Assembly: GCA_019454045.1 (NCBI GenBank)
Contig: SKCR01038878.1
Coordinates: 150,112-214,111 of the forward strand
Reading direction: 5' to 3'
Length of the DNA stretch: 64,000 nucleotides
DNA from: Zanthoxylum bungeanum
Lineage: Eukaryota; Streptophyta; Magnoliopsida; Sapindales; Rutaceae
In this document: piece by piece, positions 17,994 through 38,538 of the stretch
Layout: each line of letters begins with the position of its first letter
Position numbering within the stretch: the stretch's first letter is position 1
The notes under the pieces: generated by a model
What the model was told of the DNA's origin: nothing
The model's input: the letters and a program-made list of their open reading frames with translations, nothing else
Databases searched by the model: none
Position numbers and translations under genes: made by a program

Positions 17994-17994
17994 A

Positions 17995-18012
17995 TGGCAT
18001 CAAGAGCATAGG
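17995..18012 (+). promoter_or_regulatory. Primer binding site of H2
   Basis: TGGCATCAAGAGCATAGG begins one base after the LTR end CCAACA. It is identical in its first 13 bases to the H1 site. Confidence 0.85.
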
Positions 18013-20815
18013 TTAAAAGCATGAAAAATGTTAGGGCTAAAATTTGGGCAAACTTGAATTTGAGCATGATAAATGAAATTGGATGGATTTGTATGCTTAA
18101 TTGTGTTTGTATTGAAGATTGATTATGTCAATTTGAAGAAAATATGATTGGATCAATTTTTCCCCAAATTGCTACCTTGGCCGAAATTGATATTGATTTT
18201 ATGTCTTGGGATTTTTGATTTTTGACAATTGGAAGTGTTGGAAATCATTCGGGATGATGATTTAACGTCAATTGCGGAATCAATTGGATTGAATTCGATT
18301 TGGACGAAAAATCCCCAAATTGCCAAGTATGTCATGAAACTTTAAATTGGGTAAAATTGATTTAAGCATGCAATTATGAAATTGGATGATTAAGTATGCT
18401 TAATACATGTTTTAATTGATGATTGGTTGGATCAATTTGATTAAATATTGTTTGGAACAAATTTCCCCAATTTTGATGTGTTGGCCGAGAGTTATGCCCC
18501 TTTGTGTTCTTGGTGAATTTTGATTTTTGAAACATTGGATGTGTTGAAAATCATTAGAGTATATTGATTTAATGTCGAATTGGGTTTAATTGGATTGAAA
18601 CAAATCGGACATGTAATTAACCTTATTGCCGAGAACAAAGTGAGCATGTAATGGGTTTGATTTTAATCTTAATATGTTGGACATGTGATGATGAAATTGA
18701 GTATGATTAATTGGACTAATTTAGTGTTTTGGAAATGTTGATTTAGTTGATTAATCATGTAATGCACTTTAAGTAATTAAATTGTTAAATTGGATTTATG
18801 TAATTTAATTATTTGAGGCCTTAAATTGGATTTGGGCTTCTAATGTTGTAATTGGGCCTATTGGGCTTGATTTTATCAAGTTGGGTTTGGGGCAAATGGA
18901 TTGGATCCAATTGGGCCCAAAACCTTAACCATAAAGCCCAAATGCAACTAATGGACCTTTGTAATTTAATTGGGCCTAATGGGCCAAAATTAATTTAAAG
19001 GCTTATGGGGTAAATCCCGGATTGGACTTTGGTTGCGGGTTTGACCCGAGTTGACCAAAAGACCACGCCTTAAGAAATTAATTAAAAGCCCATTAGACTT
19101 TAATTAAATTAATATTGGATATTAATCGGGCTTTGAGACCCGTAGCGATTAAATTTGGAATTTAAGTCGAAAAAGGTTTATTAATAAAGTGTGATATTTA
19201 ATTTGGAATTAAATAGTGAATTAGAATTAAATACAAATTGAATTGGATTTAATTGTGTAGTTTAATTTAATTCGGGAATTCGTACTTTAAGTACTTATTC
19301 GCAAAAACGAGTTTGACTCGAACAAAATCAAATCGTTGTTTGAACATTGGATGATCACATAATTATCAGATTAATTAATTTGATTAGATTGATTGATAGC
19401 ATGCTTATATGAGTGAATACATGGTTGTGATGCATGAATAATGTATATCGGATGGATATTAGATGGGTGGGGCAATTTTAGAAATTGTTGTAATAAATTT
19501 TCGATTTATTAATTGGACCTGCGTGTCCAGCCTTATCACCTTCATTCTCTTTGTATTCTCTTCTCACCTATTCCCCTCTATGTATATGAGGTTTCTTTAG
19601 AAGTGTAGTGTAACGGGTAGAAGTAGTACAAGTGCTAGCTTGAGTGAGAAAGGGAGAGATTTGATCTAGGATCAATGTGTTAAGTATCCATCCGCATATC
19701 ATTATTATTTTATTTCATACTCGCTTTATTATGTGTTTAGAATGCATGCTTAAGGGTGTATGATGATGAGACCTTAACAAAGATAATTAAATTGGTAGCC
19801 AATTTGCACGCGAAAAACCCTCGTTAAATATCATGCGTTTTTCCTTCCATTGAGTGATTCTTACTCAAGATCCGAGATTGGCAGGGGTTGTTGGCCAAAG
19901 TCAAGCCCTTGTCCATCAAAGATGTGTTTTAATCACGAGGCTTTGTTCCATATCGGTGTCGTGTCCAAGTTGTGGTTTGTTGGCCAAAGTCAAGACCACT
20001 TCTTGTCCATTGACATTGATTACGAAGCTTCCATGTCAATGGGTCCGCGCTTGACTGGGATCATTAGGTTTGTTGTGCCAAAGCCAAGGCCTAGTTGATT
20101 CAGAGGAAAAGGTTAGGATATACATTCGATGTATAGGCATATATAAGATATATGTTTGGGACTTGGATGTCCACCTACTGGATCTAGGAGTTGGATGAGA
20201 TCCAATTGATCTTCGAGATCTACCTAGTTAATTATCATACAATTTGTTGGCCAAAGTCAAGATTGTGTGATATTTAACGGGATCCTAGCCCACTAGGAAA
20301 CACGGTTTCCCGAGTACTCGACAGAGGGTTAGAGGCTCGACGAAAAATAGTGGGAGGCAAGTATTGAATTTGCAACATTCGTTCGAATACTCGCTAAACG
20401 CGCTCATTTAATTTATTTCGTCGTTATATTAAATGTTAGTTAGACTAATATTTAAATTGTTGTTTTAATAAACAGTTGGACTGTATTATACTTGATTATA
20501 TATAATTGGATTATATTAATCAATATATTTGAATTAATTAATTTCAGTTTACAGTTGATTTTATAATTGGATTATAGTAATCAATGTAATTGAGGTTAAT
20601 TAATTTGGATTATATTTGATTATATAGTTGGACTATTATAATCATTATAATATATAAAGTACCACTAATCGTTGATTAAATAGTTGGACTATTGTAATCA
20701 AGATAAAATTGAAAAGTTGGATATTTAAAATATAATCTGGGATTAAAATATTTTAAATGATTTAATTTTCAAATTGGGAATAAATAATAGGTTACTTTAT
20801 TTGATAAAATAACTT
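18013..20815 (+). other. H2 5' untranslated leader
   Basis: This is a non-coding leader collinear with that of H1 in opposite orientation. Four TTGGCCAAAGTCAAG-type motifs lie at about 19888, 19977, 20071 (variant) and 20244. A very AT-rich stretch with repeated TAGTTGGACTAT-like units is at 20450-20720. I find no gene; the frame at 19850-20098 lies across the motif repeats and is probably chance. Confidence 0.75.
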
Positions 20816-21205
20816 ATTATACCTTAAGCCCAAAATTAAGCAATATAAGTAGAGCATAAAATCTTTGGAAGATTCATGTGATGATGACTTTAATGCTTAA
20901 TTTAATATACTTGTCATAAATCTAATTTTTGGATTTAAGAAGTATTAAAATTGCAATTTATAATTCTTGGAGAATTAATTGACTATTCATGTAAAGTCAA
21001 AGTTTGCAATTGGGCATGTAGCACGAGGTGCACATTCCTTCATATTCTAAAACCCAAGGCTTGGCCTAAGGTTCCTAAAATATTGAAAAGGATAATTGAC
21101 ATATCCCAAAGTGACTACCATTTGGATATGGAAGACACGAAGGAATTAAAGAAAGGGCGAGGCTCTAACTTTAAATATGTTTGTCTTAGTTATGTTCACA
21201 GCTAG
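20816..21205 (+). pseudogene. H2 gag remnant
   Basis: Nucleotides corresponding to the gag VEHELWKTHRDD region are at about 20845-20890, to the IGEL region at about 20965, and to KREAH onward at 21020-21180. Most of the capsid coding and the zinc knuckle are gone. A frame of 84 residues at 20951-21205 crosses deletion junctions and is not a gag product. The junctions match those in H1. Confidence 0.75.
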
Positions 21206-23570
21206 TATTGAAATTAGATTTTAAATACTTAGTGTGGTACATAAAATATATGTATTGATATTCAGAATCTGCTTTGAGCAGGATACTGACTTCAAGCTGA
21301 GATTCCTCTGCGAATCGGAAACGGGACGAAAGTCGCTGTTTCGACCGTAGATACCTAAGTTTAGGAACTAACCTGGGGTGTGTACTTAAATTAGGAACTG
21401 TTATAATGTAACTAGTTTGACTAGAAACATTATCTCTTTATCAGTGTTTAACCCACTGCGGGTGAACCTTTATATTCTAAAACACTAAAGTGTTTTATTA
21501 TATAAGATGATACTGAGATAAATACATTAGATGTAAATAACAGAATTTATATTTTGAATATAATAAAATCTCAAACATATAAATGACAAATTAATAGCTC
21601 AAATTGATTTGATCAATAGAGACTTATTTATGGCATTGTTGTCTAGGACACAATTAAACGAGACATGTCAGTTAGACGGTGTGTCCGAACTAAAACCGAA
21701 TTTTGTTGGACATGATAAGGTTTATCACGAGTCGCTCTGAGCTATCATTTCCTTCAAACAGGATATGTATTAACAGTGCAAAACTTATTTAGAATAAGGT
21801 TCCATGTAAATCTGTTTGACAGATATCGTATAGGATATGAACGGAAAGAAACTGGGTTTCTCATTCCTAACAATTTGGGTATGCCAGGCATAAAGTTTGG
21901 ATGATACCAAACTAAGAACCCAAATTGGATTAGTGCCAATATAGGTTATCCTAAGGGAAACCATAAGTATAGTACTTATAAATCCCACATGAGAACAATG
22001 TGATTGTTGCTCACCATGCGGTTTTCCTGAGAGGAATACCGATATGCAGTGGTCAGTGGGAGGATAGTGATACTCGATGAAAATCGGAGTAATACTATTC
22101 AAGGCACGAAGTCCGTAATGGAACACAAATAGTTCATCTATGATGAATCTATACCATTAATCTTCAAATACACAAGAAACCGCGTAGATCAGAGAGAGTC
22201 AGAAAACAACCTGGGGTATGGGTTTCTGATCTCACCTCATAAAGATTTTAATCTTTTAAGGTACACCAACTGATTACGTATGAGGTAGTGATACACGGTA
22301 TCGACTCCCTATTATGGCAAAGTGCCATGAATCGAAAATGGATTCCATGTTTAACAACTATTTTGGATACTAGTTGTTGTACCACAAGGCATTGTGCCTA
22401 TGGTACATTAAACGTCTTCAAGGAAGACATACATGGAAGGCAACATACCAACGTACAAAGCTGGGCTTTTGACGGAAAGGTATCGTTATCAACATTGTGT
22501 TAATAACGGTTCAACCTTTTACCTGTTGCCATGGTAAATCCATTTTGAAGATGCTTGTTGATAACTGCGTATTTCATTTATGAAATGTGTCAGTTACAGA
22601 TCAAAATCGCTTTCCTGAAAAGGAAACCTTTTGGAGGATGTTTTCAACATCCTGACGATTTTATATAACCGACAAACAAGGTTTGCGGGTTATTCGATCC
22701 ACGTTTGGATCAATGCAAGCATAAGGTTCTTGGAACTGTCGTTTTGAAATAATCATAATGATTTATGATTTAATTCAAAACGAAATAATTCTTGTGTATA
22801 TAAGGAGGTTAGTGGGAGATTGCACTAACAGTGAAATTCCCATAAAGCAATTGGTGAAAGCTTGGCTTTCATAGAAATTCTCCGTAGAATTCTAGGGAGT
22901 AACAACCTTTATTCAAGGAATAAAGATCTACTGGGATAGATTTGGAGTTTGTTAACACTCTCTGGGAAATTGTACATTTAAAATGTACTTGTATTGGTGT
23001 CTCATATGCTTTGAGCATATGGAGTCACAATCGAGTCAATCCAAGTGATAGTCACTGGATTGAAATTAAGAACATCTGTTAGTATCTGAGAGAACTAAAG
23101 ATGTTGTCTTAAACTATGGAGATAGAGAACTTGAAGTGACTGGGATCACTGCTGCAAGTTTCCAAACCGGTAAATACTGCGGTACTATAAATTTGAACAC
23201 TGGGACAGTGAGCTGGAAATCTTCCTAGCAAGATAACTGTTGCCGAATAACAACAAATGCGGATTATTGCTGCAGCTGAGGCAGCAATAGAAGCCATTTG
23301 GATCGATAATAAATCTAATTAGATTAGATATAGTTCTGTTAGCAGCTGAGCTAGGCGTCAGCACAGGCTAAAGAATTAAAGGTCTCATCGACGATCCAGA
23401 TATATACTTCTATATCATCTGATTCGTTCGGATCATACATCGTGGCGATGTGATGATCGTGTAAATCGCGTCAGACGATAATTAAGCAAATCCGCTGACG
23501 AAAACCTTTCCTCAGCAATTTGAGCGAATTGTACATAGTTCGAGTGTTAGACACTCGAGTGACTGGCTAT
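21206..23570 (+). pseudogene. H2 copia pol remnant
   Basis: Protease/pre-integrase at about 21240-21660, integrase at about 21660-22190, RT at about 22240-23130 and RNase H at about 23130-23570 can be followed by nucleotide similarity to D and B2, with many stops and small gaps. In place of the codons for the NQVWTLVD region there is a divergent stretch (about 22360-22400) that is also in H1. No product is possible. Confidence 0.85.
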
Positions 23571-23586
23571 GTGCCAAGTGGGAGAT
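23571..23586 (+). promoter_or_regulatory. Polypurine tract of H2
   Basis: GTGCCAAGTGGGAGAT directly before the 3' LTR start TGTTGG. Confidence 0.85.
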
Positions 23587-25675
23587 TGTTGGATAATATG
23601 ACCCATAGCGTCACTATTTGTACAGATCACGGTGTTGCTGTACAAATTAACTATGTGACAAGGAAATTGCACTCTCATCATTTGTGATTAGATCACCATA
23701 GATGTATAAATGAAGAGAGGTCCATATGATTAGTTCCTGGATTGAGATGATATGAGACAGTATCAGTCCCCGAAGGATTAATCATTAAATATCCCTAGCC
23801 GAAGTATTATCGAGACTGGACATCGATAATGCGGAATAGGCTAGTATTGCACTTGTGCGCGTTGTGAGGGCACAACGGCATAGTTCTCATATATATAAGT
23901 ATTGGATACTTATGCAAGTGCAATAGGAGGTCGTGTTTCACCGATGGTACGGGAAACAGCTTCGCTCTGGATAGACCCCTCGGAATCCCATTGGTATTAT
24001 GACTATGTGTCTATGGGAGGCCGAATCGAGGTAGGTGTGTATAGTCTTAACCTGAGACTTGCATCGCTAATACTTGCGATAATCGGTAAACTCTGGTCTT
24101 GGTGGTACAGGGCTTTAACCGGTTCTGGGTACACCGCTTCTGGGTTTATCAGGGAGTCGTAGTGTATTGGGTGTGATGTCGAGACGGAAGTGTCACTTCA
24201 GTCATATTGGAGTAGATGTCACGCAGGATATGGTACTAGTGCTCTTGAGTGTTGCGCAACCAATCGGGATATTGTGACCAGGTCATGTATATCCGATTAT
24301 AGAGACTATGTTACCAAACATCCGACATGTGTTTCGGACGGGGCAGACACTTATCCAGCCCCAGCCCTAGCACGTGATTATCCGATACTGGGCCGATATA
24401 CACAATACTACTACGTATACTACGCTTGATACAGATCTTAATATTCTTATGAGAATATATCCGGAGAATTGGGAAGACTTGGTGCTTTGCTAGGAGTCGA
24501 CCTTGTCTCGTAAATCGGTAGAACGTAGTACTTGGTACGTACGTGATTCGGATACACCGACGACCGTATTTACTGCCAACATATCCGGGGATCTCATGGG
24601 TCGCTTCCCACAGATTCACCGATGACGTATGACTCGCACTTATATTAATCTGGGATTAATAAGATGAGAGAGAGAATTAATCTGGGATTAATTTCGGAGA
24701 CATTTTATCTAGGATAAAATATCAATTGAAGAGAGAGAAACATTGATTTGGAATTAATCGAGGAATTAATATATTTGATATATTAAACGAAATTAGATTT
24801 CGACGCGGAATAAAATTAGATTTTAATTCGGGCGAGCGAATTAATTTAGAATTAATTCGTTAGCGACGTGAATAATAATTCCGCTAGGCGTAATTATTTA
24901 ATTCTCGTCGCGACGGAAATTAGTTAATTCGGAATTAGCGAATTTGGGCCCGAAAGTGTTTGCGGACACATTCGTATTTTGAAACGGGTGGAATCCGCAA
25001 ATCACATCGCGATATCTCATTACTTGACACGAATAGATGATGGATGTATCTAGTCACCTTTGAGGGATGATACATTGTCTCTATTCTCAAGAGAGGTAAT
25101 GATGGCATTAATGAATTTAAAAAGGTGATGTGTGTGGTTTGGGAATTAAAACCCAAATGTGTTTGAAATGAATTTCAAATGAAATTCAAATGCATTTGAT
25201 GCATAAAGTAAACACAAAACCGTATACACACAACACTTTCATTTTCCCTCCTCTCTCTCTTCTTCTTCTTCTCTCTTCTCTCTCACGACATTTTCTGGTT
25301 TTGCAAAGGCAGTGAACTGCCGAACAGAAGCAAAAATGGAGGGAAGCAAGTGTGTTTTGTGGCAAAACAAGAGTGCTAGCACACTCCGGGATCATGCCAA
25401 GGTGATAAGGGAAGTATACCCATGAGCAAGGAACGTTTTGATGAAGCTTGGAGCTCGTTTTTCTTGATCAAAATGGCACAAAACAGAAGCCAAATCTGCA
25501 GCAGTGGGCGCACATGACAGTGAACTGCCGTGAGCAGTGGCAGTGGGCAGTGAGTTCGTTTTTGTGGCCAAATCGCATCTCCACCGCTCGATGTAAGTAT
25601 TCCGCACTTAAATCGTTGTATTCGCTTATGATTCATGCTTGAGTTTTGATCTTGGGACCTCTAGAAACTCCAACA
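23587..25675 (+). mobile_element. 3' LTR of H2
   Basis: It runs from TGTTGGATAATATGACC to CTCCAACA and is near-identical to 15907-17993. Differences are mainly one- to three-base indels, for example one fewer CAT unit near 23680. It repeats the U3 inverted-repeat array at about 24640-24915. Confidence 0.9.
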
Positions 25676-25680
25676 CCCAA

Positions 25681-26086
25681 TGGGATTTCCGAAGGTCTAT
25701 CCAGAGCGAAGCCTGTTTCCCGTACCATCGGTTAAACACGACCTCCTATCCCGCACTTGCACAAGTATCCATACTTATATAATGAGACTATGCCGTTGTT
25801 CCTCACAAGCGCACAAGTGCAATACTAGCCTATTCCGCATTATCGATGTCCAGTCCTCGTAATACTACGGCTAGGGATATTTAAATGATTAATCCTTCGT
25901 GACTGATACTGTCTCATTCATCTCAATCCACCAGGAACTAATCATAGGGACCTCTCCTTCATTTATAATCTAAGTGATCTCATCACAAAAAAGAGAGTGC
26001 AATTTCCTTTCCTTGTTACATTTAATTTGCTACAAACAACACAATGTCTGTGCAAATAGTGACGCTATGGGTCATTTTGTCCAACA
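25681..26086 (-). mobile_element. 5' LTR of H1, U3-side portion
   Basis: It continues the H1 LTR after the H2 insertion and ends at GTCCAACA (26086), followed by GTCAG. It carries more small indels relative to the 3' LTR (8041-8446) than the rest of the LTR does. Confidence 0.85.
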
Positions 26087-26091
26087 GTCAG
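26087..26091. repeat. Target site duplication GTCAG of H1 (right)
   Basis: It matches 6430-6434. The gypsy integrase resumes directly after it. Confidence 0.9.
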
Positions 26092-26310
26092 GTCCTTTGT
26101 GATCACCAAGGTTTTACCAGACAGAGCCGTTGTACGTGATCCTAAATCCACAAAACTTTCAAGGTTAAACAAGCGTATCACACTACTGGGAGAATCATTT
26201 GAGCGACAAAAAAATAAAGTGTCCTACTTTCAGATCCAGCCTAACATTCGAGAAGTCACCGTCTAGCTGACGACGTTAACTTAGGGCTCGCAGGGAGGCA
26301 ACCCATGCAA
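26092..26310 (+). pseudogene. Gypsy G integrase C-terminal remnant (right part)
   Basis: After one lost base the translation reads VITKVLPDRAVVRDPKS and a tail of about 50 residues to a stop near 26265. This continues the GPF motif begun before H1. The tail is followed at about 26285-26310 by GCAGGGAGGCAACCCATGC, a sequence commonly found just after pol in Athila-type elements. That supports the family call and places everything to 29157 in the post-pol part of G. Confidence 0.8.
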
Positions 26311-26380
26311 TTTGTGTATATATTGTGATCTGTTGTGTTTTATTTTTGTGTGTTTTACTTTTTGCAGGTAAAGTCATTTC

Positions 26381-26602
26381 ATGATGGAAGAAGCTTGCAA
26401 ATCTTCACAAGCAATTTCTCCTCTCTCCCTCAAAATCTCTGATGAAAGTCTACAAAGCTCGCTTGAACGGATGAGGTTACTGAGGATCAAAGGTATTCCT
26501 ACTGACATTTGTTGGATTATTGAAGCACGGGTCCGATTGCAGGTGAGTCTTCTGACTCTTTTATTTCACATCTGCCTGGTTAGGAAGGAGCACTTATGCT
26601 AA
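26381..26602 (+). CDS. Unidentified reading frame after gypsy pol
   Basis: A frame of 73 codons starts at an ATGATG. I do not recognise it. The first ~53 residues are hydrophilic, rich in S, L, E and R, and contain LERMRLLRIKG. They end at CAG followed by GTGAGT, a good splice-donor match. Downstream at about 26670 is TTATTTAG, a possible acceptor, but joining the two does not keep an open frame. It lies where Athila-type elements may carry an envelope-like gene, but no transmembrane segment or other envelope feature is visible. It could be a captured exon. Coding status is uncertain. Confidence 0.3.
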   Translation: MMEEACKSSQAISPLSLKISDESLQSSLERMRLLRIKGIPTDICWIIEARVRLQVSLLTLLFHICLVRKEHLC

Positions 26603-26624
26603 AAGAGAAGAGCCAAAAGAATTT

Positions 26625-26924
26625 GTGTTTGTTATAAATGTGCTGTATTTTTGTGATACTCATTGTCGTTATTTAGGAATGGTGTCTGATAACCGGGAAG
26701 ATAAGATTAATTTCATTAGGGATGACTTGAGTAAGGAGTCTTTGGATGATATATCTAAAACTCTTGAGACGCATCCCAATGGATATGTGTATCACAAAAT
26801 TCGTTTGTTATATGCACAATTTCAAAAAGAAAGACAACATTTAAGTCTTGGGAATCTGACTCAAAAAGACTCTGTTTGCCAATTTATAAGAAAATTAGAT
26901 AGGAAGCTTGTCCCTGACGCATAG
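26625..26924 (+). CDS. Unidentified reading frame upstream of the LOG-like gene
   Basis: A frame of 99 codons; the part from MVSDNRED (about 26680) to the stop is hydrophilic and charged, with a KINFIRDD and a QFQKERQ segment, and may be the real coding part. I do not recognise it. It precedes the LOG-like gene by 250 bp of T-rich sequence containing several CAG-G acceptor-like sites. Like the preceding frame, it may be a piece of a gene picked up by G, or non-coding. Confidence 0.3.
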   Translation: MFVINVLYFCDTHCRYLGMVSDNREDKINFIRDDLSKESLDDISKTLETHPNGYVYHKIRLLYAQFQKERQHLSLGNLTQKDSVCQFIRKLDRKLVPDA

Positions 26925-27174
26925 ACGTCAATCAAGCCGCTACTTTTCTTGTACATATTATATCTCTTTGTCTTTTCTTAATAATTGTAATTTGTTTTGT
27001 TGTTTTCTTTTATTTTCTCCAACAGGATCCATACCTTTTTGACTATCACGATTTCTTTTACTATTAACTAATAATTGTCATTTGGCAGGTACTAGTGCTA
27101 TTATTTTACTCACCCTTTTCAGGTGTTATAAATTCAACTCATCATTGCACTTTTGAAGACATCCAGAGTAAAAC

Positions 27175-27828
27175 ATGGAAGCCACTTCAAGAAGACGAGT
27201 TGTAAACATCTGTGTGTTTTGCGGTACTAGTGTTGGTGTTAAGCCACAATACGTAGAAGCAACACAAGAATTGGGTCGAGTCTTAGCTGCAAGGAATATG
27301 CACTTAGTATATGGCGGAGGCAATCTTGGACTAATGAGGATCGTTTCAAAGGCCGTACAGGAAGGAGGCAGTCACATTTTGGGAATCATCCCAAAACCTT
27401 TGGCAGAGGCAAATCTTATTGAACCATCAAACGGAGAGGAACTGATCGTGCCAAGTATGTCTGAACGATTGGTAGAAATGATTAACCGTGCTGATGCTTT
27501 TATTGTTTTGCCAGGTGGTTTGGGCACATTAGAGGAAATTTTTACAGTGTTATCTTGGGCGAACCTGAACATACACCAGAAACCGCTTGGACTGTACAAC
27601 GTTGAAGGATTTTATGATTTTCTTTGTGTGTTTCTTGATGATGCTCGGAGAAATGGGTTCGTGTCAAAACCTTTAAAAGAACTCTTCTTCACTGCCAGAA
27701 CTGCTCCGGATCTAATTGAGCAAATCTTAGCCTATGAACCACAAGTTGACCCTATCCTTTCAAAGTTAAATTGGTCCGAGGACGATCGTGGTAAGAGGCG
27801 TCTGATTAATCTGGATCTTAACCTTTAA
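27175..27828 (+). CDS. LOG-like: LOG-type cytokinin riboside 5'-monophosphate phosphoribohydrolase, intronless, inside gypsy G
   Basis: The 217-residue protein has the whole LOG/TIGR00730 (lysine decarboxylase-like) fold signature: ICVFCGTS at 12-19, YGGGNLGLM at 46-54, GIIPK at 70-74, Arg98 in SERLVEM, and PGGLGTLEE at 113-121. Family members cleave cytokinin ribotides to free active cytokinin plus ribose 5-phosphate, in cytosol and nucleus. Plant LOG proteins usually have PGGYGTLEE and RKAEM; here they are PGGLGTLEE and RLVEM, and GLMG is GLMR, so activity is uncertain. The C-terminus adds a basic stretch and LDLNL, matching the EAR repressor pattern. The start is in good context (AACATGG). 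Plant LOG genes normally have several introns; this one has none and lies between integrase and 3' LTR of G on the same strand, which suggests capture as cDNA. No stop or frameshift interrupts it, unlike every gene around it. Confidence 0.85.
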   Translation: MEATSRRRVVNICVFCGTSVGVKPQYVEATQELGRVLAARNMHLVYGGGNLGLMRIVSKAVQEGGSHILGIIPKPLAEANLIEPSNGEELIVPSMSERLVEMINRADAFIVLPGGLGTLEEIFTVLSWANLNIHQKPLGLYNVEGFYDFLCVFLDDARRNGFVSKPLKELFFTARTAPDLIEQILAYEPQVDPILSKLNWSEDDRGKRRLINLDLNL

Positions 27829-28370
27829 CTTTTCGTGTAGAATTTCAGTTAACCAGGTACTATCTTCTAAACTATTCTTCTATTGTTTAAGACATTGGGG
27901 ACAATGTCTCATTTAGGTTTGGGGGAGGGAATTAGTTGATCAATTTCTTGTTTTTAGTTGTGTGTTGTTTTTATTTTTACTCCAAAATTTTTCAAAAAAA
28001 ACAAAAAAATTGAAATTTTTTCAAAAATTACAAAAATATTTTGCGTTTTTGTGTTTTTATTTTGACTAAAAAGGTGAAATTGGTGAGAGATAGCTGTGTA
28101 AGGAGTTTCCACTCCTGAGACGTATCTCAAACCTAATTCGGAACAAGTTAATTTTGTTTATTTCATTTTAAATTATTTAATTTATAAATTCTCCATAAAA
28201 CTGACTAAAATGGATCTTCATATGCTCAGTTGGCAGGTATTATCAACATGCATAGTAACATACGAACATGAGCTAAAATTGAAAAGTTCGTAATATTCAG
28301 TGCTCTAGTTTAATTGGAGGAAGCATCTAAAAAAGTGATGGAGTAAAAAAAAAACATCTGAGATCCGTGT
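27829..28370 (+). other. Post-gene region of gypsy G
   Basis: It contains GACATTGGGGACAATGTCTC at about 27890, itself a partial inverted repeat, followed by TTAGGTTTGGGGGAGGG at about 27914. This pair is typical of the untranslated region after the last gene in Athila-type elements. The LOG-like gene therefore lies inside the element transcript and not beside it. The rest is A/T-rich with no gene. Confidence 0.7.
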
Positions 28371-28581
28371 TATTAAGTCCGTAGGGGTGTTTTAACACCT
28401 AGTGCCCTAAAGCCAACTGGTTTGGGAGTCACTGGCCCAAAGCTCGCTACATGGATCAAAGATGATGCAAATATATATATATATATCTGAAGTCTGAGTA
28501 TTAAGTCCGTAGGGGTGTCTTAACACCTGGTGCCCTAAAGCCAACTGGTTTGGGAGCCACTGACCCAACACTCGCTACATA
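28371..28581 (+). repeat. Tandem duplication in the 3' untranslated region of G
   Basis: Two copies of about 85 bp (28371-28453 and about 28499-28581) share TATTAAGTCCGTAGGGGTG, a GGTGTTTTAACACC-type hairpin, and CCAACTGGTTTGGGAG. They are separated by about 45 bp containing a TA dinucleotide run. Copies differ at several positions. Confidence 0.85.
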
Positions 28582-29138
28582 GACGTAAGATATTGTATAT
28601 AAATAAAAAAAAAATCAAAGAAAAAATCAGAAAAATCAGAAAAATTATTCCATTGCTGCAAAAAGGTGTGAATTCTGATAAAACTTTAGGACACAAATAT
28701 TACTCTCTTATCAACTGCACTTATGACTGTTGTGGGCAAAAATGAGTTGTTTAATATTTTGTTTGCTATGTATATGGAGAATGGTAAATATAATCGGAGA
28801 ATTTACTTATTCAATAATTTAGAAATAAAGAAAACAACTAGTAACTTGGAGTAGAAGTTTCACCTGATTAGTCACTAACTTCTTTATTCTATTTTCTCTT
28901 GTCTTTTTGCTTTTGTGTGCATTAGTTTCACTACCTTTTTACTTTTGTAAAATGTTTGTGGGTATCATTGATGTAAACCCTCACGAGACTACAACTCGTC
29001 CACTAAGGACACCTAGGGGTTTAAAGGCTTGTTGCATATGCTAAATGCAACTGTGATCCCTACGGAAGTGGCTTAGTTAAATTTTATTTTAAAGATGTTA
29101 ATGTTATTTTACTCTATGTTTTGCTAGAGGACTAGCAA
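28582..29138 (+). other. 3' untranslated region of G
   Basis: AT-rich and non-coding. Its last part (about 29008-29157) is the segment duplicated near the 5' end at 5457-5606. No gene seen. Confidence 0.6.
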
Positions 29139-29157
29139 AATGTTAGGTTTGGCGGTG
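29139..29157 (+). promoter_or_regulatory. Polypurine-like tract of G
   Basis: AATGTTAGGTTTGGCGGTG immediately precedes the 3' LTR start TGATGAG. The G-rich TTTGG-GGTG string is the expected priming position, and the displaced copy at 5588-5606 has the purer form TTTGGGGTG. Confidence 0.6.
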
Positions 29158-29842
29158 TGATGAGTGGTAATTATATCACCATTTCCCACTCATTTAACCT
29201 AATATTTTGTATAGTTTCTTGAGTTTTATGAATATTTTGATGTGTTTTGTATTATTGTGTAGATAAATAAAGTTTCAGGACATTCTGGAGGTGATTTGTG
29301 GCCAAAATAGTGAAAAACGGACAAAAGGGCATTTTCTTCATTTCGCGTGTTGCGACGCGCCAGCCTTGCGAGTCGCGACGCCTAACATGCACCAAGACTT
29401 GCTAACGTGCGCCGAGTCCACAAGTCAGAATCTTAGAAGTTTGACTTTGCTAACATGCGCCGTGCCACGTGTCACCATCACAGCCGATTTGCTAACGTGC
29501 GCCATGCCACGTGTCATCATCCTACGGCGACGACAGTCGCTATCCCCATGTGCCGCCACGTGTCACTCCACGTCATCATCCACATCACCAGTTGACCGAG
29601 TCAAAGTGCCACGTCATCACCAAGTCATAATTAGCCAATCACAGCATGCCATGTGTCATCATTCTATGGTGCCGACAGTCACTTTCGCCATGTGTCGCCA
29701 CGTCAGCTCAATCATTCAGCTCCCAGCCGCCTTGCCACGTGTCACATTATCACCTTATCCAGAATCCACTGTCGAGCTCTCAGCACTCTACGTCGACAAT
29801 CACGGGGGTCGCGACGCGAGGGCGAGGGGGGTCACCGAGGCC

Positions 29843-29852
29843 TATAAATAAA
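29843..29852 (+). promoter_or_regulatory. TATA box of the G 3' LTR
   Basis: TATAAATAAA lies about 100 bp after the last CACGTG and just after a GC-rich stretch. It is the only good TATA in this LTR, and it is absent from the truncated 5' LTR. Confidence 0.7.
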
Positions 29853-30238
29853 GCTCGAAATTTCAGTGTCAGATGCACCTTCTCTCTAATTCTCGATTGA
29901 TGTAAATAGGGAGTTTTCTATCTAGTTCTTTTAATTTCAGTTTTGTAATTAATTTTAATTACGGTTATATAATAGTTAATAGTAATAGAATTACTTTCTT
30001 TACTTTTTACAAGTTTTTACTATCAACCATTGAGGAGTGGTGGTAACTTCCCCCTGCTAGGTGTGAAGATTGAAAGGTAAGTCTTTACTATGCTATTTAG
30101 ATTAATCTCCCTTAAATATAATATATTCACATTAAAAATATTGACTTATGAGGATACCGCCATATTGGTCGTGGGTAAGTCATTTTAATATGGTTCAAAC
30201 CTGACTAATCAGGAGGATACCGCCAGATTAGGCAGTTG

Positions 30239-30243
30239 GTAAT
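30239..30243. repeat. Target site duplication GTAAT of D (left)
   Basis: GTAAT precedes the LTR end at 30244 and recurs at 40515-40519 after the other LTR end. Confidence 0.95.
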
Positions 30244-31002
30244 TGTTGGTTTCTATAATATGTCCCAAACAAAGATTAAGCATGTGAAATACTATAAAGA
30301 ATATATATGAACATGAAGTATGGCGGAATCATACTTACAATGCCTTGTGATGAAGTAGATGATCAAATGGTAGAAGCTCCAAGTGGTGGAGATTCGGCCA
30401 AGAGGAGGAAGAAGACTTGAAGCTCCAAGCTATTGTATTCCAAGCTCTTTGATGGTTTCCCTATCACCTCTTTTGATCCCTTGCTTGTGCTAGCAAAAAT
30501 GGAGAAATGGAAGATCAAATCTTCCTTGCCCTTGTCAATGGAGTTCACGGCAATTTGAGAGAGAAGAGAGAGTTTTTTGTGTAATGTCTTGATTAATTAA
30601 TTTTTGTATTACCAAAAATCAATTTATATTTATGTTATAATTATTAAATTAATATAAATCTATGACATAAACCATGCAATGGCTTAGAGTGTCAAACACT
30701 CAAACTCCATGCAAAGCCTTTGAGTGAAATGCACACTATCACCATGCAATGCCTTAGAGTGTTTTGTACACTATTAACATGCAATGCCTTATCAATAAAA
30801 TAATGCATATAATGACAAGTGTCATGTGGGCCCCACACGTTTCCCAATGAAAGTGGGCCCACGTCCACTCACGCGTTCGGGTTCGATATTTCCGAAATAC
30901 CGAGCTAGCGTCGCGACGTTAATTAAATCGGATTTAAATAAATAATCGCTCCTAGCGAAATTATTATTTACGTCGCTTACGAATTAATTCTAAATTAACT
31001 CG

Positions 31003-31172
31003 TATGCCCGAATTAAAATCTAATTTTAATTTCGCGTCGAAATCGAATTTCGATTATTATATCGAATATAATAATTTTATCGATTAATTCCAAATTAATC
31101 GTTCTCTCTCTCTGAATAAGGCACTTTATCCGAGATAAAGTTTCTCCGCAATTAATCCAAGATTAATTAAGT
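31003..31172. repeat. U3 array of short inverted repeats (D)
   Basis: Inverted repeats in order: GAATTAAAAT stem with CTA spacer (about 31008), CGAAAT with CGA (about 31039), ATTATTATAT with CGA (about 31052), CGATTAATT with CCA (about 31080), ACTTTATC with CGA (about 31121), AATTAATC with CAA (about 31149). Stem sequences differ from H and B at several places while pairing is kept. The 5' LTR of D has the same array near 39303-39471. Confidence 0.8.
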
Positions 31173-31296
31173 TCGAATCAAATATCATAGGTGAATCTTC
31201 AGGAAGCGACCCAAGAGATCTCCGGATATTTTGGCAGTAAATACGGTCGTCGGATAATCCGAACACGTACGTACCTCGTACTACGTCTTTACCGAT

Positions 31297-31797
31297 TTAC
31301 AAGACAAGGTTGGCTTCTAGCAAAGCGCCATGCCTACCCAATTCTCCAGAAATATTCTTATAGGAATATAAGATCTGTATCAGGCGTAGTATACCGTAGT
31401 ATTGCGTACATCGATCCAGTATCGGATGATCACATGCTAGGCCTAGGGCTGGAGATGTGTCCCCCCGTACGAAACATATATCGGACATCAAGCAACTAGT
31501 CTCTTTAAATCGGACAATCCTGACCTGGTCATATTGTCCCGACGGTTGCAACCTTTTATAGAGTACTAGTTCTGTGCCCTGCGTGATCATCGCCTCCATA
31601 TGTCTGAAGCGATACTTCCATCTTGACATCACATCCAGTACACTACGCTTCTCGATAAACCCAGAAGAGGTGTACACAGAACCGGTTAAGGTCCCCAACC
31701 ACCAAAACCAAAGTTTACCGATTGTCGCAAGTACTAGCGATGTAAGTCTCAGGTTAAGACCATATACACCTACCCTGATGCGGCCTCCCATAGACAC
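31297..31797 (-). other. Long sense reading frame in the D U3
   Basis: A 166-codon frame runs in element sense upstream of the TATA box, identical in start and length in both D LTRs (also 39596-40096). Its first ~75 residues include GLNLRLTSL, IGKLWFWW, GSVYTSSGF and RSVLDVMSRWK. The same residues, without gaps, appear in B1 (44665-44898) and H1 (7794-8033), and in part in H2 (16223-16483). I do not recognise a protein. It may only reflect DNA-level conservation of U3. Confidence 0.25.
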
Positions 31798-32220
31798 ATA
31801 GACATACTACCAATGGGATTCCGCGGGGGGTCTATCCAGAGCGAAGAAGCTGTTTTCCGTACCATCGGTAAAACACAACCTCCTATCGCACTTGCATAAG
31901 TATCCAATACTTAAATATATGAGAACTATGCCGTTGTGCCCTCACAACGTGCACAAGCGCAATACTAGCCTATTCCGCATTATCGATGTCCAGTCTCGAT
32001 AATACTACGGCTAGGGATATTTAATGATTAAACCTTTATGGATTGATACTGTCTCATATCATCTCAATCCAGTACTAATCATATGGACTTTTGCCATTTA
32101 TATTCAAAGTAAAAAAAATTACAAAACGGCAAAAGGCAATTTCATTATCACATAGTTAATTTTGTACAATAATACAATATCATTTACAAACAGTGACGCT
32201 ATGGGACATAATGTCTAACA

Positions 32221-32236
32221 ATCTCCCACTTGGCCT
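32221..32236 (-). promoter_or_regulatory. Polypurine tract of D
   Basis: In minus sense AGGCCAAGTGGGAGAT abuts the LTR start. Confidence 0.85.
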
Positions 32237-32645
32237 ATAGCCAGTCACTCAAGCATCTAATACCCGAACTATGTATGTGTCGTTCAAAAACTTGCTGAAT
32301 GACAGCCTTCGTCAGCGGGTCTGCAATGTTATCATCTGATGTGACCTTCTCGACTTTTACATCGCCACGATGTATGATCTCCCGAATCAGATGGTAACGT
32401 CGAAGAACATGCTTGGACCGTTGATGAGACCTTGGTTCCTTAGCCTGTGCTATGGCCCCGTTATTGTCACAATACAATGGAACGGGCTCTGCTGCTAACG
32501 GAACTACTCCTAATCCGATTAGGAACTTTCGGATCCAAACTGCCTCCTTTGCTGCTTCAGATGCAGCGATGTACTCCGCTTCTGTTGTTGAATCGGCAAC
32601 AGTATCTTGCTTGGAAGATTTCCAGCTCACTGCTCCGTTATTCAA
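32235..32645 (-). CDS. D copia RNase H domain
   Basis: The 136 codons encode a complete copia RNase H end: VSWKSSKQ, ADSTTEAEYIAASEAAKEAVW with the catalytic D and E, LYCDNNGAIAQAKEP, RSKHVLRRYHLIREI and ADPLTKA. RNase H removes genomic RNA during reverse transcription. It is normally the C-terminus of one Pol polyprotein; here a single-base change at about 32746 separates it from RT. The stop falls within the region of the polypurine tract. Confidence 0.9.
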   Translation of the reverse strand: MNNGAVSWKSSKQDTVADSTTEAEYIAASEAAKEAVWIRKFLIGLGVVPLAAEPVPLYCDNNGAIAQAKEPRSHQRSKHVLRRYHLIREIIHRGDVKVEKVTSDDNIADPLTKAVIQQVFERHIHSSGIRCLSDWL

Positions 32646-32743
32646 ACAAAAAATGTACCCGGATTGTGACCTGTAGTCATCCTTGTCGGTTTGGAAACTT
32701 GCATCGGTATACCCAGATACCGCAAGTTCTCCACCTCCATAAA

Positions 32744-34441
32744 TTAAGAAAGCATCCTTAGTTCGTTTAAGATATTAAGGATATTCTTAACTGCTATCCA
32801 GTGACCTTCACCTGGATCGGCCTGATAGCGACTACACATGCTCAAAGCATATGAGACATCAGGTCGTGTACATATCATGGCATACATGATCGATCCGACT
32901 GCCGAGGCGAACGGTATCCGACTCATGTTGTCTCTCTCTTCCTGAGTCTTAGGACACATGTCCTTAGACAGAGAGGTACCACGTATCATTGGAACCAATC
33001 CCTTCTTGGATTGTTCCATGTTGAATCGCTTCAACACTTTATCAATGTATGTACTCTGGGAGAGTCCAAGCAGCTTTCTAGATCTATCCCGGTAGATCTT
33101 TATTCCAAGAATAAAGGCTGCTTCTCCCAGATCTTTCATGGAGAATTTTAATGAAAGCCAAGCTTTCACCGACGTTAGCATGGGAATGTCATTGCCTATC
33201 AGCAATACGTCGTCGACATAAAGGACGATAAAAGTAAGTGCTCTCCCACTAACCTTCTTGTATACACAAGGGTCATCTGCGTTTTGCATGAAATCATATT
33301 CTTTTATGATCTCATCAAAACGTTGATTCCATGACCGTGATGCTTGCTTCAATCCATAAATGGATCGATTTAACTTACAAACCTTGTTTGCAAGTCTTGG
33401 CACGATAAAACCGTCAGGCTGTTGCATATAAACATCCTCCAAAAGGTTTCCGTTAAGGAAAGCGGTTTTAACGTCCATCTGCCATATCTCGAAGTCGAAA
33501 TATGCAGCTATTGCAAGCATTATCCGAATGGATTTAATCATGGCAACGGGTGAGAAGGTCTCGTCATAATCAATACCGTATTGTTGACGATACCCCTTCG
33601 CTACAAGCCTAGCTTTGTACGTTTGTACGTTGCCATCCATGTCGGTCTTCTTCTTGAAGATCCATCTGCATCCAATAGGCTTTACGCCTTCTGGTGCATC
33701 AACCAGTGTCCAAACTTGGTTGGCGTACATGGAATCCATCTCGGACTTCATGGCTTCTTGCCATAAAGCGGAATCGATATTTTGTATCGCTTCCTCATAC
33801 GTAGCCGGCTCATTATCCTCAATAAGATTAATATCTATATGAGGTGAGATCAGGAACCCATACCTCTCAGGTACTGTTCTGACTCTCTCCGACCTACGCG
33901 GTCCTTGTGTATGTGAAGTTTGTGGTACAGACTCATCCCGGACGGTCTGTTCTTGTTCCGTCGTTGATTCATTGCCAGGAACAGTATCACTACGATCTTC
34001 ATCGATTTCTACTTTCCTCCCACTTACCACTGCATTTAGGAATTCCTTCTCAAGGAAAACCGCATGTAGAGCAACAAATACTTTGTTCTCTTGTGGGTAA
34101 TAGAAGTAATATCCTTTGGTTTCCCTAGGATATCCTACGAAAAGGCATTTATCCGATTTGGGTTCAAGTTTGGTACCTTCCAAACGTTTAACATATGCCC
34201 AGCATCCCCAAATCTTTAGGAAAGAGAAACCTGGTTTCCTTCCTGTCCATATCTCATATGGAGTCTGTTCAACAGACTTCGACGGTACCTTATTCAAAAT
34301 AAGTATAGCACTGTTTAATGCGTATCCCCAGAAGGATATTGGTAGCTCAGTGCGACTCATCATTGACCTCACCATGTCCAATAAGGTGCGGTTCTCCGTT
34401 CGGACACACCGTTTAATTGCGGTGTTCCAGGAGGAGTCCAC
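32744..34441 (-). CDS. D copia pol: integrase C-terminus and reverse transcriptase
   Basis: The 565 codons run from the end of the integrase core (NRTLLDMVRSMMSRTELPIS) through its C-terminal region (PYEIWTGRKP, IWGCWAYVKR, residues 61-86), a linker, and the full RT: WTLVDAPEG near 244, QMDVKTAFLNG at 321-331, [13 protein letters not shown] at 355-367, and YVDD at 408-411. RT copies the element RNA into DNA in cytoplasmic particles. The frame ends at VKNILNILN, where a lost base shifts it away from the connection domain. Upstream it is out of phase with the integrase core at about 34430. Residues for polymerisation are all present. Confidence 0.92.
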   Translation of the reverse strand: MDSSWNTAIKRCVRTENRTLLDMVRSMMSRTELPISFWGYALNSAILILNKVPSKSVEQTPYEIWTGRKPGFSFLKIWGCWAYVKRLEGTKLEPKSDKCLFVGYPRETKGYYFYYPQENKVFVALHAVFLEKEFLNAVVSGRKVEIDEDRSDTVPGNESTTEQEQTVRDESVPQTSHTQGPRRSERVRTVPERYGFLISPHIDINLIEDNEPATYEEAIQNIDSALWQEAMKSEMDSMYANQVWTLVDAPEGVKPIGCRWIFKKKTDMDGNVQTYKARLVAKGYRQQYGIDYDETFSPVAMIKSIRIMLAIAAYFDFEIWQMDVKTAFLNGNLLEDVYMQQPDGFIVPRLANKVCKLNRSIYGLKQASRSWNQRFDEIIKEYDFMQNADDPCVYKKVSGRALTFIVLYVDDVLLIGNDIPMLTSVKAWLSLKFSMKDLGEAAFILGIKIYRDRSRKLLGLSQSTYIDKVLKRFNMEQSKKGLVPMIRGTSLSKDMCPKTQEERDNMSRIPFASAVGSIMYAMICTRPDVSYALSMCSRYQADPGEGHWIAVKNILNILNELRMLS

Positions 34442-35300
34442 TGTGAAAGAATACCATATTCTTTCAAGTAATCTTGAAACTCATAACTTAAGTATTCGCC
34501 ACCACGGTCTGACCGTAATGTCTTAATACTCTTCCCTGTTTGTTTCTCCACTTCGTGTCGAAACTCTTTGAATTTCTCAAAAGTTTCCGACTTGTGTCTC
34601 ATAAGATACACATAACCGTAACGAGATGCATCATCTGTAAAGGTTACGAAGTAGTGAAATCCACCTCTAGCCTGGCTAGACATGGGCCCGCATACGTCAG
34701 TATGAACGAGAGCTAACAGTTCTGTGGTACGTTCACCTTTACCGCTAAAAGGTGATTTAGGCATTTTGCCTAAAAGACAAGATTCGCAGACGTCATATGA
34801 ATTGAGATCAAATTCGTCCAAGTACCCACTCTTCGAAAGTGTGGATATGCGAGTCTTGTTAATGTGTCCTAGACGACAATGCCACATATAAGCTTCATCT
34901 TTTAGATTACTCCTTTTGAGCCTTTTGTTTGTCATTTTAGGAGATTCATTTATATTCAAAATATAAAGACCGTTATTTGCAACAGCTATGCAAATTTCTG
35001 CATCATTTTTATATAAATAACACCCAGTGTTTCTAAATACAAAAGTGTAACCCTGCTGGGTTAACAAGGATACAGATATAATATTCCTAGTTAAACTAGG
35101 TACAAAATAACAGTTTAAAAGTTTAAGTACATGCCCTGAGGGCAGTTCTAAAACAAAAGTCCCTACGGCCAAAACAGCAACTGGTGTTCCGTTTCCGACC
35201 CGTAGATCCATCTCCCCTGTCGCCAGCATCCTGCTATCATGCAGATCCTGCACATCAGTACAAATATGAGCACCACAACCAGAATCAAAAATCCAATTTT
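34369..35300 (-). CDS. D copia protease, pre-integrase and integrase core
   Basis: The frame includes the protease motif DSGCGAHIC at about 35260-35290, then GEMDLRVGNG and LAVGTFVL, the pre-integrase zinc region (MWHCRLGHIN, CESCLLGKM), and the integrase core with HTDVCGPM, FVTFTDDASRYGYVY, RSDRGGEY and PGTPQLNGVSER. The catalytic D, D and E of the integrase core are in place. It is shifted out of frame with gag by one missing base before the protease (about 35300) and with RT at about 34430. Confidence 0.9.
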
Positions 35301-35922
35301 AAAACTAGAAGTATTCATATTTATCTCAATAACAAACATACCAGAGGCGGTAGCCTTGCCACCTTGCTATCCTCCTTCTGCACAATGTTTATTTGGCAGT
35401 CACGTTTCCAGTGACCCCTTTGCCGCAGTTAAGGCAGATGTCGCGAGATTTGTCCTTTGGCTTCCTAGAAGCCACTGTCAACTTGCCTTTGCCCTTCTTT
35501 TTGAACTTCCTCTTCCTCGCACCTCCAATTGCCATGGGCCTAGCCTTTGGCGCATGAGAGGTCGATGCATAATGCGCCTCGCGCTTGCTCCCCTTTAGGA
35601 GTTCCCTTTCGGACTCCTTCAGCACGGACAACAACTCTCCAAGAGTGTCGTCAGTATCCATCAACTTATAGTTGACGATGATTTGTTTCCAAGTATCGGG
35701 CAGCGATTGTAATATCATATCAATCGTCAGCTCTGCCTCCAAGACAATGCCCATATTGGCTAACTCATCTATGTCAGCGATCATTTGAGTCCCGTGGGCC
35801 TCAACTGATGCGCCATCTGTCATCCGGGAGCGGAAGAGTTTCCTTACTAGCTCGTACCTCTTCATCCGCTTGTTAGTGCGGTGAAGATCACGCAATCTTG
35901 CCATCATGTTATAGGGATCCAA
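35301..35922 (-). CDS. D gag, C-terminal part with damaged zinc knuckle
   Basis: A 177-codon frame (35389-35922) carries the Gag capsid segment LRDLH, MIADIDELANMG, LQSLPDTWKQIIVNY and GELLSVLKE, a strongly basic linker (RKRKFKKKGKGK), and the start of a CCHC knuckle, CLNCGK. An extra or missing base in the following G run moves GHWKRDC out of frame. Gag forms the particle and binds RNA. The frame change may be real or a sequencing error at the homopolymer. Confidence 0.85.
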
Positions 35923-38470: not shown

Positions 38471-38523
38471 GCTTCAATCAATTTTCACAAATTTTAACCT
38501 AAAGTATTTCATGCTTAAACCTA

Positions 38524-38537
38524 GCTCAATGATACCA
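38524..38537 (-). promoter_or_regulatory. Primer binding site of D
   Basis: In minus sense TGGTATCATTGAGC, one base from the LTR end CCAACA. It matches initiator-Met tRNA (TGGTATCAGAGC) apart from TT inserted after TCA. Confidence 0.88.
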
Positions 38538-38538
38538 T

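Follow-up and report, generated by a model that had tools for sequence, protein, structure and literature searches.

A LOG-type gene maintained under purifying selection in an Athila-like family of gypsy retrotransposons of Zanthoxylum bungeanum

The additional open reading frames of plant gypsy elements mostly have no recognised domain or function. Alvarado-Marchena et al. (2022, PMC9289625), who cite Steinbauerova et al. 2011, have already reported a LOG-type (YgdH/LOG) domain in Ty3/gypsy elements from Citrus sinensis, C. clementina, and Populus trichocarpa. The LTR elements described here, from Zanthoxylum bungeanum, likewise carry a LOG-type domain. Whereas the accessible part of that paper gives the domain and the species, the present work adds a high copy number, two lineages of LOG, tests of selection, carriers lacking pol or both gag and pol, and a C-terminal tail. 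Among the open-licence PMC papers listed, PMC9289625 alone was found to place LOG or YgdH in a retrotransposon, which is no proof of absence; in the accessible parts of PMC11963269 and PMC7264820, no mention of cytokinin or lysine decarboxylase was found. According to the same part of PMC9289625, orchid Ty3/gypsy elements carry an AlkB-type 2-ODD RNA demethylase together with a dual RNase H, another case of a host-type enzyme fixed as a gypsy additional ORF. The enzyme there is a different one, with an activity demonstrated in vitro, whereas that of the LOG protein is putative, and the dual RNase H belongs to the orchid elements. In Arabidopsis, many Athila copies that lack pol still have an undamaged gag or env ORF subject to purifying selection, and distant lineages recombine (Marco & Marin 2008, PMC2410132). 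The present family resembles Athila in its pol-less copies that keep a selected ORF and in recombination between lineages, but the post-pol slot holds a homologue of a hormone enzyme, LOG, rather than an env-like ORF.

The window is the whole 64,000-nucleotide stretch of contig SKCR01038878.1 that was analysed. Its LOG-family gene is one uninterrupted open frame of 217 aa with no intron, matching Lysine_decarbox (PF03641, E 1.3e-35) and also LDcluster4 in Pfam, which bears out the sequence-only reading of an intact LOG-type frame. That reading also called it the only undamaged long gene in the window, which holds only loosely, since the copia-type insertion in the 3' LTR has an open 565-aa frame (32744-34441). 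A Pfam search with the 94-aa frame upstream of LOG (26640-26921) matched no family. The closest solved structure by sequence is Arabidopsis At2g37210, which we take to be LOG3 (PDB 2a33), just as we take At5g11950 to be LOG8 (PDB 1ydh). The predicted model (mean pLDDT 83.6) aligns with At2g37210 at a TM-score of 0.94 (normalised by the target) and with P. aeruginosa LOG bound to AMP at 0.93; by the Pfam match and the structural comparison, the SLOG/Lysine_decarbox fold covers most of the protein. The PGGxGTxxE motif and the catalytic Arg preceding it have established roles in LOG enzymes. Both are present in the window protein (R98; PGGLGTLEE, 113-121) and are shared, like the fold, with At2g37210 and At5g11950, to which structural alignment gives identities of 47% and 41%, respectively. 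However, the RK pair of plant LOGs is missing and the window reads SERL, whereas LOG1/3-type enzymes keep QRK and lack the basic-plus-LxLxL tail described below. The window protein therefore has the LOG fold and belongs to the family, but is not a canonical plant LOG. By family type, it is a putative cytokinin riboside monophosphate phosphoribohydrolase (type I).

The gene lies inside a gypsy retrotransposon, in the same orientation as the element and with integrase before it and the 3' LTR after it, as had been proposed, and the landmarks given for the integrase tail end, post-pol motif, polypurine stretch, and LTR start were about right (Table 1). The LOG context of the interval first assigned to the element (26092-29157) stands, but its extent does not; the true copy is wider and comprises 5689-6434, 26087-30243, and 40520-41569. 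Two insertions cut it, one flanked by the exact 5-bp target duplication gtcag and the other by gtaat. The copia-type insertion in the 3' LTR has LTRs of its own (30242-32220 and 38537-40514) that are 99.0% identical. The window copy is of the pol-less form: RT, RNase H, and most of integrase are absent between its two matching pieces, like in other pol-less copies. Relative to L031, a copy with pol, the upstream remnant matches 2565-2955 and then 5673-5809. Within the non-coding stretch after LOG, a unit of about 82 bp is duplicated (28371-28452 and 28499-28580). Upstream of LOG, the conserved CAG/GT is a possible 3' splice site and TATAAATT a possible internal TATA box.

Table 1. Features of the LOG-bearing element copy and of the insertions that interrupt it (window coordinates)
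Feature	Position	Strand	Basis
Rearranged pieces of the same LOG-element family: LTR start at 4784-5453, followed at 5454-5690 by an internal 3' end with LTR start	4784..5690	+	joined straight to 5689
Upstream remnant, protease-region end fused to integrase tail	5689..6434	+	matches L023 5080-5820 (86%), L025 5106-5852 (89%)
Nested copia-type block in integrase tail	6435..26086	.	gtcag at 6430-6434 and 26087-26091; self-comparison; element resumes at 26087
Integrase C-terminal tail (end approximate)	26087..26266	+	collinear with L031 integrase end
Post-pol motif ggctcgcagggaggcaaccca	26285..26305	+	sequence
Conserved pyrimidine tract leading to CAG/GT at 27122/27123, then TATAAATT at 27127-27134	27105..27134	+	column identities, 20 copies
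LOG gene	27175..27828	+	open frame, Pfam, structure match
C-terminal tail DRGKRRLINLDLNL, basic cluster plus LxLxL	27784..27825	+	alignment of 20 copies
Internal polypurine stretch ggtttgggggaggga	27916..27930	+	sequence
Non-coding stretch with conserved blocks 28065-28330 and 28635-29024	28065..29024	+	pairwise identity mostly 0.89-0.95 in blocks
G-rich stretch right before 3' LTR, at the polypurine-tract position	29143..29157	+	sequence
3' LTR, first part, starting TGATGAG	29158..30243	+	self-comparison, copy alignment
Copia-type element in 3' LTR	30244..40514	.	target duplication gtaat at 30239-30243 and 40515-40519
3' LTR, second part, ending ...accggtca	40520..41569	+	alignment with other copies

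In the 3.96-Gb host assembly, all 150 scored LOG matches cover 216 or 217 of the 217 residues in one frame. A search for further LOG-bearing copies was positive in each of the 19 fetched, which were selected by LOG protein score: all have LOG, the element 3' flank (with gaps in L024 and L034), and the LTR start. For sixteen, alignment with the window begins at the integrase tail (26087); for the other three, it begins essentially only at about 26990. The suggestion of a mobile element that supplies LOG copies is thus well founded. LOG is retained in three forms of the element, namely with pol, without RT, RNase H, and most of integrase, and a third form without recognisable gag or pol, two ORFs of which gave nothing above the Pfam cut-off. 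Eight copies have LTR pairs. The gene is intact in very young copies of both reduced forms, including L029 (pol-less, LTR K2P 0.002) and L036 (third form, 0.0053).

The family has the domain order, LTRs, and primer site of Ty3/gypsy elements, although the window copy itself is without RT and RNase H; in L031, Pfam finds gag, RT, RNase H, and then integrase. The primer site TGGCGCCGTTGCCGGGGA, or a sequence one change from it, follows the LTR end in all seven copies printed and is presumably a match to tRNA-Asp, a primer linked to Athila. The three ORFs of L031, the one copy examined for this, gave no match to a second (archaeal-type) RNase H (RVT_3) or to a chromodomain. Among non-chromoviruses, the second RNase H marks Tat, and tRNA-Asp is one of the primers used (Neumann et al. 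2019, PMC6317226, in the part available). These features suggest an Athila-like element in which LOG would occupy the slot of the Athila env-like ORF. Relatives of the element pol, judged by the best 120 of 7,953 scored, occur in many angiosperms at 59-80% identity.

Two LOG lineages, A and B, are found in the family. In lineage A, the LOG fold, its active-site residues, and the tail are conserved. R98 and PGGxGTxxE are present in the window and in the 19 other A-type copies of the first sample, and a 30-row alignment has no variation at P113, G115, G117, E120, and E121 and almost none at R98. In L053, a copy picked by its flank, S replaces the G of GT in PGGxGTxxE, and four of the 20 copies, including that of the window, have R at position 55, within the GLMG motif. 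The basic residues of the tail and LDLN occur in 20 of 20 copies, the final L being outside the coverage of three. The ending LDLNL fits the LxLxL pattern, and the tail is disordered in the predicted model (pLDDT < 50). By pattern, the basic cluster is a putative NLS and LxLxL a putative EAR motif, which would make the tail a TOPLESS-recruiting one.

Because the first copies were picked by protein score, their dN/dS was not relied on alone, whether pooled (0.23 for 20 copies, moving from 0.45 at dS < 0.08 to 0.15 at dS 0.2-0.3) or as medians by form (0.18 with pol, 0.23 pol-less, and 0.15 in the third form, from 3 pairs). Over most of pol only 6 of the 20 copies align, and pol dN/dS was hence left uninterpreted. 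Eight further copies were selected by non-coding flank instead. One has an open A-type LOG (with the G-to-S change), one an open B-type, and one a B-type open only from residue 23; four have stops, frameshifts, or a deletion, and one has an LTR insertion there. Since most of these are broken, the open frame of the window is not exceptional, and integrity among wrecks is ruled out as an argument for selection. The sequence-only reading had offered recent capture or selection as the cause of that integrity. Selection holds, as a property of the element lineage and not of the window copy; recent capture does not. In the four A-type copies among the flank-picked eight, private changes (N 35, S 10, two stops being outside the N count) give an omega of 1.06, that is, neutral decay of older copies. 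With L049 (LTR insertion) and L052 (last 54 codons only) left out, A-B comparisons in the flank-picked sample give dN/dS of 0.14-0.22 at dS 1.1-1.5, and B-B 0.23. Across seven outgroups, the L036 branch has N 6-8 and S 18-20; with 7/19 as the working value, omega is about 0.11 (Fisher p 5e-8). The L029 branch has N 2-5 and S 6-10. Long-term purifying selection on the element LOG protein is therefore clear. Both branches may include time in pol-bearing elements because LOG moves between forms by recombination; selection within the pol-less forms is likely.

The low dN/dS could conceivably be an artefact of picking by protein score, in a region conserved because of RNA or DNA signals that act in cis. 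Protein score was in fact the basis for choosing the first 19 copies, and the non-coding blocks after LOG are conserved nearly like LOG itself. Nevertheless, the A-B omega stays low in the flank-picked sample, and the L036 branch has 7 replacements where neutrality would give about 63 per 19 silent changes, making this explanation very improbable. We give virtually no credence to the idea of a normal host LOG locus that happens to have retroelements as neighbours: an intact frame of a known enzyme family would suit it, but 3' flank and LTR start are shared at 19 of 19 other places. A single, intron-bearing, unrepeated host locus is ruled out, as 150 of 150 matches lie in one frame and the window gene has no intron. 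That one element took up a host LOG cDNA in a single, recent transduction would explain the intronless frame and is nonetheless extremely improbable, given 150 scored places and two lineages at dS > 1 in one genome. Moreover, identity to Arabidopsis LOGs is 41-47%, while the 120 best-scoring relatives of LOG3, which come from a conifer and many angiosperms, share 74-98% identity with it. Element-type LOGs also form a group separate from LOG1/LOG3/LOG8-type host enzymes (support 100/97, bootstrap not fully settled) in a tree of 27 of the 120 relatives and 16 of the 120 host-type proteins. The A and B proteins are 63-64% identical, yet their 3' flanks are 93-94% identical; such divergence on near-identical flanks, at dS > 1, makes the association of LOG and element old. 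An old capture of a cDNA is the likely origin. A scan of viral contigs for LOG found no relative.

The most serious competitor is that the LOG fold now serves a purpose unrelated to cytokinin, the protein acting to recruit co-repressors in the nucleus, as a factor bound to RNA or particles, or as an enzyme for another nucleotide substrate. In the B lineage, Q replaces the catalytic Arg (MSEQ in L047 and L050), as it does in 9 of 120 relatives of the element LOG (EQI or EQL). This weakens the enzyme reading, and the B lineage is under selection all the same. The K after the catalytic Arg, kept as QRK in 118 of 120 host-type enzymes, has given way to L, I, or M in most of the element LOG's relatives (ERK in 11 of 120). 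LxLxL in the last 14 residues occurs in 84 of 120 relatives and in 0 of 120 LOG1/3-type host enzymes, and LOG is present even in gag/pol-less elements. Against this stand the residues kept in the A-type copies and in the 30-row alignment, which indicate that most of the active site is still under selection. We regard re-use as possible, though on the unlikely side.

On balance, the reading we favour, with some reserve, is a resident accessory gene of an Athila-like family, in which a putative cytokinin enzyme with a nuclear co-repressor tail would favour inheritance of the element. The LOG protein would be translated from the element's own RNA, either after splicing to the candidate acceptor or from a start at the TATA box just after it. 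At least the A-lineage protein would act as a cytokinin-nucleotide phosphoribohydrolase, and the tail would carry it to the nucleus, where it would contact TOPLESS-type co-repressors. In cells transcribing the element, active cytokinin might rise, host genes might be held down, or both, and meristem or germ-line-precursor cells might be kept dividing and permissive. Copies with a working LOG would then leave more inherited copies. Expression, enzyme activity, and benefit to the element are all inferred in this scheme. A diffusible hormone aids every element copy in the cell, so that selection at the level of the element would require some, here hypothetical, preference in cis. It is unlikely that the lineage has kept a hormone-activating enzyme with a nuclear, co-repressor-binding tail for tens of millions of years and that, in the meristem, local cytokinin and repression through TOPLESS steer host cell fate, to the point that elements reduced to LTRs and LOG could spread thanks to it.

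The enzyme fold of the LOG ORF is known, its selection signal is clear, and it is intact in recent copies lacking pol and even recognisable gag. Consequently, a single small protein allows the role of post-pol genes in plant elements to be tested directly. Should this protein prove active, a plant hormone-activation gene would be part of a transposable element's cargo. Counts of LOG genes in plant genomes may also take in element copies.

Sequence relatives of the element LOG from Populus bear host-gene names (LOGL10) and may be such copies.

The sequence-only reading placed LOG, a frame of the cytokinin riboside monophosphate phosphoribohydrolase type, inside a Ty3/gypsy retroelement, and a search of the host genome bears this out. 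Further copies were found with the LOG protein as query against the 3.96-Gb assembly (51,709 contigs): the best-scoring 150 of 70,234 first-look candidates, the window among them, all span 216 or 217 residues at at least 88% identity. A total of 117 of the 150 are stop-free, a figure that overstates integrity because these are the best-scoring places, and some haplotypes may be represented twice, judging from the near-duplicate contigs C20388/C20389. When 19 of the 149 other places were fetched (about 10 kb each), all carried LOG together with the window's downstream non-coding stretch, gapped in L024 and L034, and the start of the LTR. Alignment to the window starts at the integrase tail in 16 of these copies and essentially only from about 26990 in the other three.

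The LTRs are about 2.1 kb long, and in all seven copies inspected the sequence after them holds the primer site TGGCGCCGTTGCCGGGGA or a single-change variant, which we take to fit plant tRNA-Asp. The fetched copy L031 matches Retrotrans_gag, RVT_1, RNase H, Integrase_H2C2, and rve; its protease match is weak and falls short of the cut-off, and it gave no hit to a chromodomain or to a second RNase H. Neumann et al. (PMC6317226) separate Tat from Athila by the second RNase H. The position of LOG, after pol and before the 3' LTR, is the slot of the env-like ORF in Athila. Pol sequence covers most of its length in six fetched copies (L022, L024, L028, L031, L033, and L035, the last with a gap in RT), and no gag was seen in the fetched stretches of L022, L033, and L035. 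Nine copies (L021, L023, L025, L027, L029, L030, L032, L034, and L038) have the protease region joined to the integrase tail, lacking RT, RNase H, and most of the integrase (about L031 2955 to 5628); the window copy is of this pol-less form. A third form (L026, L036, and L037) gave no tblastn match to gag, protease, or pol proteins other than one 26% match to the C-terminal part of gag in L026 and weak translated traces. Frames of about 260–310 aa in L026 (5170–6096) and L036 (5684–6469) match no Pfam family above cut-off. In L039, the match is confined to the integrase tail and what follows it.

LTR divergence (K2P over 0.9–1.03 kb per LTR pair, eight copies) is 0.002 in the pol-less L029, 0.0053 in the third-form L036, and 0.028–0.052 in the other six. 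Substitution rates of 0.65–1.3e-8 per site and year put L029 and L036 at about 0.1–0.4 million years. Consequently, both pol-less and gag/pol-less LOG carriers were mobile recently, with their remaining proteins presumably supplied in trans. According to Marco and Marin (2008, PMC2410132), 70% of the Athila copies with potential activity code for Gag or Env without Pol, under purifying selection. The finding is thus the known pol-less Athila pattern with a homologue of a hormone enzyme where env would sit. PMC9289625, citing Steinbauerova et al. 2011, notes a YgdH (LOG-type) domain in Citrus and Populus gypsy consensus sequences.

Features of the window and LOG copies picked by non-coding flank
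Feature or copy	Position in window	Description	Further detail
Protease-region to integrase-tail fusion	5689–6434	visible in window copy	
Block of nested copia-type elements	6435–26086	splits window LOG element	duplication gtcag
LOG frame	27175–27828	open	217-aa product
Conserved blocks, LOG to 3' LTR	28065–28330; 28635–29024		
Duplicated unit of about 82 bp (gtccgtaggggtgttttaacacc...)	28371–28452; 28499–28580	side by side	93% identical
Copia-type element	30244–40514	splits 3' LTR of window LOG element	5-bp target duplication gtaat; LTRs 99.0% identical; frames of 565, 294 and 177 aa
End of 3' LTR of LOG element	41569		
Tandem array	61599–62307	86-bp unit	half-units of 44 bp; copy number about 8
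L053		A-type LOG, open	G117 to S in PGGxGTxxE motif
L046		A-type LOG	one stop
L048		A-type LOG	one stop
L051		A-type LOG	frameshifts
L052		deletion fuses integrase to about LOG codon 164 (about last 54 codons left)	stop
L049		LTR insertion	
L047		B-type LOG, open	
L050		B-type LOG	open from residue 23

The intactness of the window frame had been read as a sign of recent capture or of selection. Among the 20 protein-picked copies, the pooled dN/dS is 0.23, which is not decisive because picking by protein score lowers dN. A second sample was therefore drawn with the non-coding stretch 28080–28960 as query (best 40 of 6,534 first-look candidates scored); by eye, only the window's own place shares a contig with the LOG list, and eight of the 39 other places (seven fetched plus L046) were compared. 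In the four A-type copies of this sample, of the window's lineage, private changes number 35 replacement to 10 silent (omega 1.06, two stops not counted), which is neutral decay once inserted. Along the L036 branch, however, there are 6–8 replacement and 18–20 silent changes over seven outgroups; taken as 7/19, omega is 0.11 (Fisher p 5e-8). L036 belongs to the protein-picked sample, but neutrality predicts about 63 replacements for 19 silent changes, so protein-score picking cannot account for the seven observed. The L029 branch has 2–5 replacement and 6–10 silent changes. Together with the decay of the flank-picked copies, these branches indicate strong purifying selection on LOG in active lineages, with decay later. 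Selection likely acts within the pol-less forms, although LOG's carrier form could vary along these two branches. A–A pairs, window included, give dN/dS of 0.27–0.60, the B–B pair 0.23, and A–B pairs 0.14–0.22 at dS 1.1–1.5.

Recent capture did not stand. The A–B dS is near saturation and corresponds to some 40–115 million years at the same rates, and in a 49-protein tree, with bootstrap not fully settled, 31 element-type LOGs split from 17 LOG1/LOG3/LOG8-type host enzymes at 100/97. The element-borne state is known only for the own-genome rows of this tree; the public relatives, many on short contigs and some from Populus and Xanthoceras, are likely also element-borne. B-type proteins share 63–64% identity with the window LOG but 87–91% with P0008 and P0010, both public relatives. 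In their flanks, L047 and L050 match the window at 94% and 93% identity, while their LOG genes share about 73% DNA identity with it, likely through template switching between elements carrying different LOGs. Recombination between distant Athila lineages is described for Arabidopsis in PMC2410132.

The window protein matches PF03641 (LOG/lysine-decarboxylase-like fold, E 1.3e-35). Its predicted structure, built from an alignment of 30 relatives (mean pLDDT 83.6), superposes on its best solved relative, At2g37210, and on AMP-bound P. aeruginosa LOG at target-normalised TM 0.94 and 0.93. R98 and PGGxGTxxE, which we take to be catalytic, occur in the window and all 19 copies of the first sample. 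The residue after the catalytic Arg is K in 120/120 host-type enzymes; in element-type relatives it is mostly L, I, or M (ERK in 11/120), and the Arg itself is replaced by Q in 9/120. L047 and L050 read MSEQ, with Q for Arg, as do P0008 and P0010. The A lineage may thus have LOG activity; the chemistry of the B lineage may be lost or changed, though its sequence, too, evolves under constraint.

The window protein ends in DRGKRRLINLDLNL. Basic residues (KRNR in one copy) and LDLN are kept in all 20 copies, with the final L uncovered in three. LxLxL lies within the last 14 residues of 84 of the 120 best relatives (fragments included) versus none of the 120 best LOG3 relatives, and the basic cluster in 105 versus one; this contrast is with LOG1/3-type enzymes. 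EAR repression motifs that bind TOPLESS have this LxLxL pattern, and the basic cluster resembles a nuclear localisation signal.

Upstream of LOG, the TTACTCACCCTTTTCAG/GTGTTATAAATTC stretch is strongly conserved and appears as read-through residues THPFQVYKF in P0009 and THFQVYKF in P0008. It offers a candidate 3' splice site and a candidate TATA box, either of which could yield a separate LOG message. On the simplest reading, cells transcribing the element would be favoured by active cytokinin made by the element or by nuclear use of the LOG protein. In the open stretch 26556–26921, the 94 aa from 26640 matched no Pfam family. Pairwise identity of the two conserved non-coding blocks downstream is mostly 0.89–0.95 among 20 copies, nearly that of the LOG coding region, which suggests possible cis-acting signals. 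The two units of about 82 bp cross-match in 18 of 19 other copies. Farther along the window, a reverse-strand frame of 153 aa runs through much of the tandem array.
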